This document shows positions 30,813 through 35,109 of a stretch of DNA of 39,072 nt, piece after piece. Under the pieces are notes generated by a model. The model was not told the origin of the DNA. It ran no database searches and was given only the letters and a program-made list of their open reading frames with translations. Positions within the stretch are counted from its first letter, which is position 1, and every line of letters begins with the position of its first letter. A program made the translations under genes and the position numbers. Origin of the DNA: Comamonadaceae bacterium (lineage in GTDB: Bacteria; Pseudomonadota; Gammaproteobacteria; Burkholderiales; Burkholderiaceae_C); assembly GCA_025356545.1 (NCBI GenBank), contig JANXSU010000040.1:1-39072 (forward strand), in the 5' to 3' direction.

Positions 30813-31883
30813 ATGAGCCTGATCCCCACCACCATCCTGACCGGCTTTCTTGGCTCCGGCAAAACCACCTTGCTCAAGCGCGTACTGCAAGAAGCGCATG
30901 GCCAGAAGATTGCCGTGATTGAGAACGAGTTCGGTGAGGAAAACATCGACAACGACATTTTGGTGTCTGACACCAACGAGCAGATCATCCAGATGAGCAA
31001 TGGCTGCATCTGTTGCACCATTCGCGAAGACCTGCGCACCACACTGCGGGATCTGGCTGAGAAGAAGCGCAAGGGCGAGCTCGACTTTGAGCGCGTGGTG
31101 ATAGAGACTACTGGCCTTGCCGACCCCGGCCCCGTGGCGCAAACCTTCTTCATGGACGATGAAATCGCCGAGAGCTTTTTGCTCGACTCCATACTCACCC
31201 TGGTGGATGCCAAGCACGCCGCTCAGCAGTTGAACGACCGCCAAGAGGCGCGCCGTCAGGTGGGCTTTGCGGATCAGATCTTCATCAGCAAGACCGATCT
31301 GGTGACGGCTGAGGAAACCGCCGCGCTGATGCATCGCCTCAAGCACATGAACCCGCGCGCGCCGCAAAAAGCGGTGCATTTTGGCGAGGTGGCTTTGAGC
31401 GAGGTGTTTGACCTGCGCGGCTTCAACCTCAACACCAAGCTGGAGATTGACCCGGACTTCCTCAAAGAAGAGGAGGCAGGGCACGACCACGATCATGCAC
31501 ATGAGCACGCCAATGAACACGAGCATGGCGAACACTGCGACCACCCCTCGCACCAGCACGCTCATGGCCACCACCATCACCATGACGACGATGTGAAAAG
31601 TTTTGTCTTTCGCTCAGACCGCGCCTTTGATCCGGCCAAGCTGGAGGACTTTTTGGGGGCCATCGTCAATATCTATGGCCCACGCATGTTGCGCTACAAG
31701 GGTGTGTTAAACATGAAAGGCACCGAGCGCAAGGTGATTTTTCAGGGCGTGCACCAACTCATGGGCAGCGATTTGGGTCCGGCCTGGGGCGCGGATGAGA
31801 TGCGCACCAGCAAGATGGTGTTCATCGGCCTGGACTTGCCCAAAGACATCTTCTTGCAGGGTCTGGAACAAAGCCTGGTGTAA
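30813..31883 (+). CDS. CobW/COG0523-family GTPase with histidine-rich loop
   Basis: A 356-aa G3E P-loop GTPase, a group of metal chaperones (zinc, cobalt, nitrile hydratase metal). Walker A is GFLGSGKTT (11-19); IENEFGEENIDNDIL follows; the metal motif C-x-C-C is C65-I-C67-C68 in SNGCICCTIRED; VVIETTGLADPGP is Walker B and ISKTDLVT the guanine-binding NKxD-like motif (here SKTD). A stretch at about 223-262 is very rich in His, with many HxH pairs, before the C-terminal CobW domain (SFVFRSDRAFDPAKLEDFLG; LRYKGVLNMKG). Metal delivery is expected; the client protein is unknown. It precedes dksA, a conserved neighbour in betaproteobacteria. Confidence 0.93.
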   Translation: MSLIPTTILTGFLGSGKTTLLKRVLQEAHGQKIAVIENEFGEENIDNDILVSDTNEQIIQMSNGCICCTIREDLRTTLRDLAEKKRKGELDFERVVIETTGLADPGPVAQTFFMDDEIAESFLLDSILTLVDAKHAAQQLNDRQEARRQVGFADQIFISKTDLVTAEETAALMHRLKHMNPRAPQKAVHFGEVALSEVFDLRGFNLNTKLEIDPDFLKEEEAGHDHDHAHEHANEHEHGEHCDHPSHQHAHGHHHHHDDDVKSFVFRSDRAFDPAKLEDFLGAIVNIYGPRMLRYKGVLNMKGTERKVIFQGVHQLMGSDLGPAWGADEMRTSKMVFIGLDLPKDIFLQGLEQSLV

Positions 31884-31915
31884 AACCGGTACACTCGCGC
31901 GCCGGGAGAAAAACT

Positions 31916-31954
31916 ATGACCCCCGCAATTCCCAGTCATGTAATGAAGTTATAA
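31916..31954 (+). CDS. Possible 12-codon leader peptide upstream of dksA
   Basis: ATG 31916 has a good Shine-Dalgarno sequence (GGGAGAAAA, 31904-31912) and reads MTPAIPSHVMKL, ending TAA 31952-31954, 79 bases before the dksA start. Two consecutive Pro codons are absent, but Pro occurs twice. It may be a regulatory leader or merely a chance frame after the CobW gene. Confidence 0.25.
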   Translation: MTPAIPSHVMKL

Positions 31955-32033
31955 CTGTACGTGTTGTGGTATGGGCGTCTGCCTATACCCTGCGAAAAGA
32001 CAAGATTTGACGATCACAACAGGAAAGACACCC

Positions 32034-33176
32034 GTGTCCACCAAAGCCAAAACCGTAGCGGCCAAGACCAAGGCCAAGCCCGCCAGCAAGGCGGCTACCA
32101 AGCCAGCCGTAGGTAAGGCCGTGGTGAAGTCGTCCAAGCCTATTGTCAGTAAAAAGCCAGTGGTGAAGTCTGTTGCTAAGTCAAGCGTTAAAGCCAAACC
32201 CGCAGCTCAAAATAAAGCTATCGTCAAGCCTGTTGCTAAGACCATCGTAAAAAGCAAGTCAACTGTCAAAGTTAAACCGCCAGTCAAAGCGCCTCTCAAA
32301 GCATCAGTTAAAGCCCGACCTGCTTCCAAATCACAAGCTGTTGCAAAACCAGTCGCCAAGAAAGTGGCCGCCGCTAGTCAACAGACGCCAAAGGCCGCTA
32401 AACCATTGGCCCCATCCGTAAAACCAACGATTCAAGCCATTGCCAAGCCGACTGCCAAGCCGACTGCCAAGGCTTCGATCAAACCCGCAACTCCTCTGAA
32501 AACCATACCATCTGCCATTGTCTCAGCCGTGTCCCCAATGCCTGCTCCTAAAGTTTTACCATCGGCTGTTGTGCCACCGGTAAAACCCCGGGTGTCCTCG
32601 CGTTTAGCCCAGTTGACCGTTCCTTCCATGGCGCAATCGGTGGCCTCCACCGCTGCCAAAGCCAGTTATTCCCAATCCGTGCCCGTGACCCTGATTGTTC
32701 CTCCCCTGCCTTCAAGTATCAAAAAAGATCCCAAGTTGGCCAATAACTGGAAAACAAAATCCGCAGACCAACTGACTGACGCTGAGCTGATGGCCATGCC
32801 CGACAGCGAGTACATGAACGACAAACAAGTTGCCGCCTTTCGTCACAGGTTGCAGTTGCTCAAAAAAGACATGCTGGCCAATGCGGGAGAAACGACGGAG
32901 CACCTGCGAGAAGACACCGTGGTTGTGCCCGATCCGGCGGACCGTGCCACCATCGAAGAAGAGCATGCGCTGGAGTTGCGCACTCGCGACCGCGAGCGTA
33001 AGTTGCTCAAGAAAATCGAGCAGTCCATCACACAAATTGATGCTGGTGAGTACGGCTATTGCGATGAAACGGGTGAGCCCATTGGTGTAGGCCGTTTGCT
33101 TGCACGACCCACCGCAACCTTGTCGCTAGAGGCGCAGCAGCGCCGTGAGCTCAAACAAAAGATGTTTGGGGATTGA
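32034..33176 (+). CDS. dksA: RNA polymerase-binding protein DksA with long Lys/Ala/Pro-rich N-terminal extension
   Basis: A 380-aa protein. The last ~130 residues are DksA: EYMNDKQVAAFRHRLQLLKK, then DPADRATIEEEHALELRTRD (with the acidic coiled-coil tip region) and RERKLLKKIEQSITQIDAGE. The zinc finger keeps one cysteine (GYCDETGEPIG); the other three positions are Thr, Ser and Ala-type residues, as in other betaproteobacterial DksA proteins I remember. DksA works with ppGpp in the RNA polymerase secondary channel. The first ~230 residues are histone H1-like, made of degenerate KPVAK, KAKP and VKSS units, very basic and disordered. Start is GTG 32034, since AGGAAAG (32021-32027) is well placed; an upstream ATG at 31971 is not. 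Confidence 0.88.
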   Translation: MSTKAKTVAAKTKAKPASKAATKPAVGKAVVKSSKPIVSKKPVVKSVAKSSVKAKPAAQNKAIVKPVAKTIVKSKSTVKVKPPVKAPLKASVKARPASKSQAVAKPVAKKVAAASQQTPKAAKPLAPSVKPTIQAIAKPTAKPTAKASIKPATPLKTIPSAIVSAVSPMPAPKVLPSAVVPPVKPRVSSRLAQLTVPSMAQSVASTAAKASYSQSVPVTLIVPPLPSSIKKDPKLANNWKTKSADQLTDAELMAMPDSEYMNDKQVAAFRHRLQLLKKDMLANAGETTEHLREDTVVVPDPADRATIEEEHALELRTRDRERKLLKKIEQSITQIDAGEYGYCDETGEPIGVGRLLARPTATLSLEAQQRRELKQKMFGD

Positions 33177-33240: not shown

Positions 33241-35109
33241 ATGGCCAAAGACGATTCCAACCCCGGTTTGTTCTCAAAAGTTGCCCGGTTTGTCGCTAAT
33301 CCGACTAAGGCTTGGGAGGAGATTGAGGTCAAGGAATCTGAGTTGAACGCGGGCTACAGCAAAGAAGTGCTAAAAGCCATGATTGTGCGCAAAAAACAAA
33401 ATGATTTTGTGCGCAAACGCGAATTTGATGTTCTGCGAAAACTGCGCAGAACGGAGCCAGCCGAAAGCGTTGCCAGAACGGGTCGCCCCTCCGATTTTCA
33501 GAGCAGTTTGCCCTCCAACTCCGACGACCGGGCAATGACGGTTAGGAAGATTGATGCGATCGAGGCCCAGATGTCTAACCAATGGTGGCGGGGCAAGGGT
33601 ACTGATGCGGGATCTGAAGCGCGACCTGTAGCGCCTCCACCCCGCTTACAAGACGTTCACACGAGTCCGCCCGTGGGCTCTCCCTCAATGCCAGCTTCGG
33701 GTCAGGTTGCAAATCCACGACTTTCGCAGTCGCAAAGCCTTGATTTGAAGGGCAGTAAAGTCTTATCGCCATCCATACCCATAAATATGCCTCGGCCCGA
33801 GTCGGCCTACAAACAGGCTGCTGCTACCGCTCATGCGCCATTAACCCCGGCCTCAGCATCCCCTAAGCCCAAAACACCCGCCGGCATTATTGAGCCTCCT
33901 CCGCAATGGGGTAAGGCTAATAGTCCAGCGACCGACATGGGGGGCTTGGGCCCTGGTTTTTCAGTTTCCAACATTTTTGAAAATGTTGAAGTGGATATTG
34001 CCTCAGAACCTGAGCTCGAAGAAGCGTCAATCCGTTTTGCCAATGGTGACAGTGTGGGGGCTGAAGACGCACTTTTGGCGGCTTTGAAACCTGGCGATTT
34101 GACGTCCGAACGCGCCGAAATTTGGATTGCCGCTTTATTTGACTTGTACCGGGCCACCGGGCAGCAAGCTCGGTTCGATGAAAGTGCGATTGAATTCGCC
34201 AGTCGTTTTGGGCGCTCGGCCCCGGCTTGGTTTTCTACGCCTGAGTTACTTAAACGTGGTGCTGCTGGGTCAAGTTTCATAGGTAATGTGCCTCACGTTG
34301 CTGCATCAACGGCTGTTGCGCATTGGACGGCACCTGATGTTTTGACCGTAGCTAGCCTGACTGCATTGCAGTTGGTTTTAAAAAGTAAACCAGCTCCATG
34401 GTTGCTGGATTGGGGGGCTTTGGTTTCTATCGAGCCTGCGGTCGTGCCCGAACTAGGGGCATTGTTTTCGCACTGGTGCGTTACACCGGTAACCTTGGGT
34501 TTTAGGGGCGCAGAGGGTTTACGGCAGGCTTTGAAGTCTCTCACCACCCTGGGGGAAACGACGCTAGCACCTGCCGCTTGGCAAATGCACATGGATGCTT
34601 TGCGCGTGATGGGGTTGCATGACGATTTTGAGACGATTGCACTGGACTTTTGCGTTACTTTTGAGGTGTCCCCCCCGTCCTGGCAAAAATCCTTGTGCAT
34701 TTGTAAGTTAGAGGGCACTGACGCAGATCCAAGTGCGAGCTCTAGCTCGCATTACATGGAAGGTAAGGAGCCTTGGAAAGACTCCATCGTGCACAGCTCA
34801 TTTCTTGAGGAGGACTCAGTCATTGGGGTCGCCATGGTGGCACTGAGCGGAGAGGTCTTGAACGATGCTGCAGAGGCATTGGCTCAATTAGAGACAGCCA
34901 TGGGGGAAGGCGCCTCGCAAATGGTGATTTCTTGTGATAACTTGATTCGTGTTGATTTTTCTGCGGCGGGCAGTATTCTCAATTGGGTTGCAGGGCAACG
35001 GGCCAGTGGTTGCATAGTGCAGTTTCGTAATGTAAACCGTATCGTGGCTGCCTTCTTCCATGTGATCGGCATTACTGAATTTGCTCGCGTGGTGCCGCGT
35101 AACACCTGA
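33241..35109 (+). CDS. Large hypothetical protein with two STAS-like domains
   Basis: A 622-aa soluble protein of unknown function. Residues 1-90 are charged and helical (LFSKVARFVANPTKAWEEIE); 90-245 are low-complexity, Pro/Ser-rich and probably disordered; 255-340 look like a FimV/TPR-type helical repeat (EASIRFANGDSVGAEDALLA, IWIAALFDLYRATGQQARFD). An MlaB-like STAS fold is suggested at about 358-430 (PWLLDWGALVSIEPAVVPEL), followed by a helical LRVMGLHDDFETIALDFCVT and FEVSPPSW, and a second STAS domain at about 528-620 (MVALSGEVLNDAAEALAQLE; ISCDNLIRVDFSAAGSILNW). Similar proteins occur in Burkholderiales. STAS domains act in anti-anti-sigma or lipid-transport complexes; which applies is unknown. 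It lies upstream of the mraZ cluster. Confidence 0.72.
   Translation: MAKDDSNPGLFSKVARFVANPTKAWEEIEVKESELNAGYSKEVLKAMIVRKKQNDFVRKREFDVLRKLRRTEPAESVARTGRPSDFQSSLPSNSDDRAMTVRKIDAIEAQMSNQWWRGKGTDAGSEARPVAPPPRLQDVHTSPPVGSPSMPASGQVANPRLSQSQSLDLKGSKVLSPSIPINMPRPESAYKQAAATAHAPLTPASASPKPKTPAGIIEPPPQWGKANSPATDMGGLGPGFSVSNIFENVEVDIASEPELEEASIRFANGDSVGAEDALLAALKPGDLTSERAEIWIAALFDLYRATGQQARFDESAIEFASRFGRSAPAWFSTPELLKRGAAGSSFIGNVPHVAASTAVAHWTAPDVLTVASLTALQLVLKSKPAPWLLDWGALVSIEPAVVPELGALFSHWCVTPVTLGFRGAEGLRQALKSLTTLGETTLAPAAWQMHMDALRVMGLHDDFETIALDFCVTFEVSPPSWQKSLCICKLEGTDADPSASSSSHYMEGKEPWKDSIVHSSFLEEDSVIGVAMVALSGEVLNDAAEALAQLETAMGEGASQMVISCDNLIRVDFSAAGSILNWVAGQRASGCIVQFRNVNRIVAAFFHVIGITEFARVVPRNT

Follow-up and report, generated by a model that had tools for sequence, protein, structure and literature searches.

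Does this organism really make a DksA that begins with a long histone H1-like tail, and if so, what would such a tail be for? The question comes from a gene in the window, by which we mean the whole stretch of DNA that was analysed (39,072 nucleotides of contig JANXSU010000040.1 from a Comamonadaceae bacterium). The original prediction for this gene was a DksA fused to an extension of about 230 residues, that is, a disordered polycation on a factor of the RNA polymerase secondary channel. DksA is a bacterial regulator of the starvation (stringent) response that plugs into RNA polymerase, and most of what is understood about it comes from model proteins that lack a tail. Papers are cited below by PMC number, from excerpts of their text.

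Layout of the tailed DksA

The frame is open from the GTG at 32034 to the stop codon at 33174–33176 and gives a product of 380 aa (Table 1), and both Pfam and TIGR02420 place DksA at the C-terminal end, which bears out the fusion to a long extension. In this protein Pfam finds DksA_N at residues 265–335 and zf-dskA_traR at 338–372, and Pfam and NCBIfam together put the DksA domain at 255–376. The score against TIGR02420, the NCBIfam dksA equivalog, is 139.8 bits and so above the cut-off of 115.5, and phmmer matches the core to E. coli DksA (1TJL) with an E-value of 4.8e-29.

Table 1. Features of the dksA locus, in coordinates of the window.
Feature	Positions	Strand	Remarks
cobW/yjiA-type (COG0523) GTPase, conserved upstream neighbour	30813..31883	+	Pfam, NCBIfam
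TATAAC, candidate -10 element	31950..31955	+	recurrence in relatives
AGGA ribosome-binding site	32021..32024	+	9 nt 5' of GTG 32034; sequence, scored in L002-L004
dksA with N-terminal tail	32034..33176, stop included	+	380 aa, GTG start
Histone-H1-like tail	32037..32588	+	residues 2-185; K40 R1 D0 E0, A38 P27; predicted disorder
Conserved junction	32589..32720	+	residues 186-229, RVSSRLAQLTVPSMAQSVASTAAKASY...; alignment
DksA N-terminal segment	32721..32813	+	residues 230-260, KKDPKLANNWKTK...MPDSEY; alignment
DksA core	32814..33173	+	residues 261-380; Pfam, NCBIfam, phmmer, Foldseek
DxxDxA motif DPADRA, coiled-coil tip	32931..32948	+	residues 300-305; invariant in 18 rows
C343, sole remaining zinc-site cysteine	33060..33062	+	

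AlphaFold2, run with an 18-row alignment, gave residues 1–222 a pLDDT of about 40 and no secondary structure. The folded part is a coiled coil (263–293 and 301–337) with a C-terminal helix (361–378). The pTM is low at 0.31, owing to the disorder of the greater part of the protein. A Foldseek search with this model had four matches with E ≤ 0.001, namely 7KHI, 1TJL and 5VSW (E. coli DksA) and 4IJJ (P. aeruginosa DksA2); all four had E ≤ 1.2e-4, so the fold is that of DksA. The domain is complete and has the DxxDxA motif (named in an excerpt of PMC9239242), and binding to RNA polymerase and ppGpp is predicted for it by family. PF01258 has a single match in the whole assembly (3.26 Mb, 96.45% complete, 5.27% contamination), which is this gene. 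It is the organism's normal DksA and the sole copy detected in the assembly.

The length given for the extension needs correcting. A long polycation is there, and the K/A/P-rich stretch covers 184 residues (2–185), but residues 186–229 are a different, conserved junction. Over those 184 residues there are 40 lysines, one arginine and no acidic residue, for a net charge of +41. With that composition, the disorder seen by AlphaFold2 and the Pfam assignment, the description as a disordered polycation on a secondary-channel factor is sound. The tail is K/A/P-rich, acid-poor and disordered, and in this it resembles histone H1-like proteins (Hc1 and kin). Searched against Pfam, it had nothing over the cut-off, the sole match being a sub-threshold 'PT disordered repeat', and PF07432, the histone H1-like profile, had no match in the genome. 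We found no other AKP-tailed or Hc1 proteins in the genome by similarity search, which is a weak tool for low complexity. A link to a defence system was rejected, as PADLOC gave no match.

The junction has a variant form. At Hydrogenophaga-type loci (L090, L115 and others) it reads PRPLGKRAAKKVMMEQMTQ..APDAAKATF in place of RPSSRLAQLTVPSMAQSVASTAAKASY, with AAKA[ST][FY] kept. Judged from the sequence, this part of the protein may serve to bind a partner.

Translation, make-up and distribution of the tail

The obvious worry is that the start is wrong, with the true protein beginning near the DksA domain and the extension untranslated. Acidovorax-type relatives do have a readable start 43 codons 5' of the core, and there the tail is absent. 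However, the tail is free of stop codons in both genus mates of the window, G001 (97% identity) and G002 (76%). Between the window and G002, dN/dS is 0.19 in the tail, 0.07 in the junction and N-terminal segment and 0.01 in the core. For the closer pair of window and G001 the tail value is 0.72, resting on only 15 changes. By these computations the tail is read in frame and is under purifying selection.

The start itself is also conserved. A fixed composition rule classes 77 of the 80 named loci as tailed, and 67 of these 77 have GGAG 4–13 nt 5' of a start codon near the beginning of the tail (56 GTG, 8 ATG and 3 TTG, followed by lysine in 54). The background rate of GGAG over all in-frame start codons of the same open regions is 103/1477. 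The GGAG rule gave no site in the other 10, which include the nearest relative (L035), which carries AGGA. For Xanthomonas euvesicatoria, excerpts of PMC5559785 report a DksA of 256 instead of 147 aa with a GTG start, plus a processed form, and the peptides and start-codon mutagenesis there favour the longer protein. With stop-free genus mates, the dN/dS values and the conserved GGAG and start codon, we rejected the wrong start and consider it extremely improbable. A conserved internal start at the position of the Acidovorax ATG was rejected too, as it is not conserved in alignments judged by eye.

Is the make-up of the tail kept, or is it only what remains of a repeat? We let the window's tail decay neutrally by random non-stop mutation to 56%, 40% or 30% identity, with two base compositions and 200 runs at each setting (1200 in total). 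On average the runs were left with 10–22 lysines and 8–11 acidic residues. The extremes over all runs were a net charge of at most +39 and at least 2 acidic residues, while the window has +41 and 0. This shows by computation that the make-up is constrained and that the lysine-rich, acid-free state is kept; the simulation does not tell the purpose. Across 131 scored tails of the window's family the means are 18% K and 2% D+E, and the lowest net charge is +3. The make-up in the window's family is K 15%, A 26% and P 16%, that in the rest of the class K 29%, A 24% and P 9%, and acid is about 1–2% in the tails of both. The tails that recur have the same make-up and share little sequence. The composition score has to be read with some care, since it also rises in shifted frames (≥ 40 in 171/332 loci vs 14/664 control frames), because the tails are often basic when read out of frame. 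The final tail rule uses length, K and D+E, and the 664 control frames were scored by the composition score only.

How widespread are such tails? In the window's GTDB family 299 genomes were searched and 295 had a match. By the composition rule the tail is present in 65 of the 93 loci read, and tails are common in the family; the remaining loci have an extension that is shorter or less lysine-rich, or none. Both sets, these 93 loci and the 80 named ones, are weighted toward the top matches of the window's core and have a few genomes in common. In the rest of the order the tail occurs in 6 of 55 loci read (L118, L143, L204, L205, L208, L209). These order loci were partly picked for long frames, and the rule gave 7, with L206 a false positive.

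The class sample has mostly one genome per family. Outside the window's family, 183 genomes were searched and 144 are among the matches listed (26 more matched). Among these 144 listed matches, 59 genomes have a K-rich DksA tail, 58 by rule and one by eye (G590/L258), with K-rich stretches of 43–296 residues. We read 97 of the 144; the other 47 have a whole frame of at most 175 aa. Outside the class we read 15 DksAs, those with the longest frames among the 88 phylum-sample genomes that gave a match, and saw no tail in any of them. The other best matches listed for that sample have frames of at most 174 aa. The enterobacterial-type DksAs L350 and L351 have no K-rich tail.

When 245 core sequences are placed on a FastTree tree (about 120 columns, built without support tests), the tail label changes at least 46 times, compared with a mean of 81 and a minimum of 76 in 30 shuffles. 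For the labels, L258 was set by hand, a looser score was used for L241, L256 and L265, and L206 was kept as tailed. The tail is thus bound to lineages yet has switched many times, and the tree does not separate gain from loss.

One locus does look like a natural loss from its sequence. In L025 (3.3 kb, taken as Acidovorax sp. MR-S7, cf. L072) two in-frame stops break a relic of tail and junction that lies 5' of the readable start of a short DksA. The original prediction had counted stop codons in the extension of relatives against itself, and in form L025 has them. Since its readable start is downstream and its tail is a relic, however, this is a loss and does not refute the tail of the window. 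With the tail missing in Acidovorax-type loci and in most other order loci read, it is dispensable in some lineages.

This is not one odd gene: the tails are common in the family and recurrent across Gammaproteobacteria. An assembly artefact or one-genome oddity was rejected, as tails are found in the isolates Variovorax sp. OK212 (L055), Limnohabitans sp. T6-5 (L098) and Hydrogenophaga flava (L109). Full-text searches of open-licence PMC papers for a DksA with such a tail, and for tailed secondary-channel factors, showed us nothing on an H1-like tail of DksA among the papers listed and the excerpts consulted. What has already been published is the longer GTG-started DksA of Xanthomonas, and the architecture is visible in any annotated genome.

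Zinc site and flanking sequence

Only one zinc-site cysteine is left, and there is no C4 zinc finger. The original prediction was right that the cysteines are cut to one, but this is not peculiar to this gene, as the first cysteine pair is CxxT in 175/175 same-family loci (a count of the first pair only, with some genomes counted twice). A tie between cysteine loss and the tail was rejected, since CxxC is retained by tailed DksAs in other families. According to excerpts of PMC9239242, homologues that lack the C4 finger are able to act as DksA does, so the finger is not a required feature, and some C4-finger homologues are longer than DksA.

Pfam confirms the predicted CobW-type metal GTPase upstream. 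It lies in the stretch of 77/80 named loci and of all 63 that have full flanks. Outside the family, cobW accompanies 25/44 CxxT loci of the order, 2/12 CxxT loci of the class and 0/90 CxxC loci, from stretches that differ in length. Both the lone cysteine and cobW as a neighbour are features of the whole family. The GTPase also has a histidine-rich insertion (31482–31592 of the window), which is likely metal-binding. In Pseudomonas, zinc-free DksA paralogues and COG0523 proteins are under Zur (excerpt of PMC2770081). The window's gene has no C4 DksA beside it, as a DksA2-type second copy would, there being one PF01258 match in an assembly that is 96% complete. A Zur-box scan with a consensus, allowing 3 mismatches, gave 30 matches in the window vs 20.6 expected; two Zur-box-like matches with 3 mismatches each lie at 31943–31960, and matches in the window are near chance level.

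TATAAC occurs within 250 nt before the tail start at 28/77 named loci and at none of the cobW control stretches; a sigma-70 scan did not pick up the one at 31950..31955. At 31890–31903, and in several relatives too, we noticed TACACTCGCGCGCC, followed by a GC-rich stretch, as a candidate promoter element. TACACTCGCGCGCC and TATAAC would then be two candidate promoter elements 5' of dksA, and autoregulation by DksA is conceivable. The next gene (33241–35109) encodes a 622-aa protein with a C-terminal STAS_2 domain, with relatives at 60/80 named loci.

At 36 family loci (e.g. L020, L027, L043, L057, L091, L113; a few genomes are in twice) the peptide M[IF]VS[IL]LQLMGF..GKP is found upstream in the dksA frame; it is absent from the window. 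A frame-blind search found these 36 in frame and one real match (L144) in another frame. At 33 scored loci the interval from peptide to tail is stop-free in the dksA frame, and the other frames have stops in 32/33 and 28/33. This points to a longer isoform that begins with a hydrophobic stretch, although a DNA element could also be meant, given nucleotide conservation at some third positions. A separate curiosity is L086 (CALPVM020000003.1), titled an Akkermansia muciniphila MAG, which has a Comamonadaceae-like dksA with 88% core identity and is probably misnamed or from a mixed bin.

What the tail would do

The original prediction had the extension tether DksA to DNA or the nucleoid, which is plausible. 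By analogy with other tailed proteins, we give about even chances to the tail being a non-specific tether to DNA (or RNA) that raises the concentration of DksA at RNA polymerase. The polycation would bind DNA (or nascent RNA) non-specifically, in the manner of the KPAA/AKP tails of AlgP and PhaF, and would keep DksA close to RNA polymerase within the nucleoid; secondary-channel occupancy by DksA would rise without more protein. By way of the junction and the N-terminal segment, the tail would be able to pass out of the channel entrance. As with the CarD tail of Myxococcus, the basic contact would be made without it and full activity would need it. We count in favour the intact DksA domain, the sole copy, the selection on tail and charge, the ribosome-binding site, the disorder and the recurrence; against it we count the tail dN/dS between the window and G001, the absence of the tail in some lineages and the weak charge of some family tails. 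KPAA peptides of AlgP bind DNA (excerpt of PMC9239181), and about a quarter of the reporter activity is left when CarD lacks its HMGA-like tail (excerpt of PMC4374960).

The same charge would also bind polyphosphate, RNA or other polyanions, and two alternatives follow this line. The stringent response (ppGpp) and polyphosphate coincide in starvation, which we count for the tail being a receptor for starvation polyphosphate that places DksA on granules or competes it off DNA, like AlgP. AlgP has a tail of the same make-up, is found on polyphosphate granules, and needs the tail for granule spacing (excerpt of PMC9239181), but its folded part differs and the link to DksA is through tail make-up only, and we think this role unlikely. 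Polycations that lack acidic residues bind both RNA and DNA, and DksA acts on rRNA promoters, which would fit a tail that binds nascent transcripts or rRNA, tethering DksA to RNA or ribosomes or forming condensates, and so concentrates DksA at highly transcribed loci. No specific RNA-binding motif was found in the tail, however, with the sub-threshold Pfam repeat its sole match, and this we hold to be quite unlikely.

It could also be that the tail does little or nothing, a low-complexity repeat that waxes and wanes by slippage and is tolerated because the DksA N-terminus faces solvent. Tail length and sequence are highly variable, the tail is lost in Acidovorax-type relatives, and the closest pair has the high dN/dS already given. 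Against this are the tail dN/dS to G002, an acid-free make-up beyond all 1200 of the neutral simulations and the similar make-up in unrelated families, and we regard an idle tail as distinctly improbable.

A broader version of the tether reading is possible, with the odds leaning against it. H1-like tails would be a device of general use that has evolved again and again, serving to retain the stringent-response factor DksA on the nucleoid or to shuttle it between DNA and polyphosphate. A large share of Gammaproteobacteria would have it, and the E. coli protein without a tail would represent only one of two standard forms. Some Comamonadaceae would then make a still longer isoform from a second start further upstream, with the conserved hydrophobic peptide. 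If about two fifths of the sampled gammaproteobacterial genomes outside the family (59/144, among the matches listed) are tailed, then the local concentration of DksA, its competition with Gre and a coupling to nucleoid or polyphosphate become questions.

Among known systems, E. coli DksA (1TJL, 7KHI, 5VSW) has the same fold, family and DxxDxA motif, but the E. coli type is without a K-rich tail and has a C4 zinc site. P. aeruginosa DksA2 (4IJJ) likewise has reduced zinc cysteines on the same fold, and zinc-free paralogues have a COG0523 link (excerpt of PMC2770081). It differs in being a second, zinc-starvation copy (excerpt of PMC9213440), whereas the window's protein is the sole DksA and has a long tail. 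The long DksA of Xanthomonas euvesicatoria is also N-terminally extended and GTG-started, a likeness by description, as the excerpt of PMC5559785 does not give the make-up of the extension. AlgP, PhaF and PhaM, with KPAA or A/K repeats, have a similar disordered K/A/P-rich tail (excerpts of PMC9239181 and, for the A/K repeats of PhaF and PhaM, PMC3783465), but theirs are C-terminal tails on granule-associated proteins and not on an RNA polymerase factor. There is also CarD of Myxococcus xanthus, in which an RNA polymerase-binding domain is joined to a disordered, DNA-binding, HMGA-like tail that is needed for full activity (excerpt of PMC4374960), although its RNA polymerase-binding domain is unrelated and binds the beta subunit, and its tail is C-terminal and has AT-hooks. 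If our reading is true, the tailed DksA would join CarD as the second known case in bacteria of an H1/HMGA-like tail on a factor that binds RNA polymerase, and it would be a widespread case.
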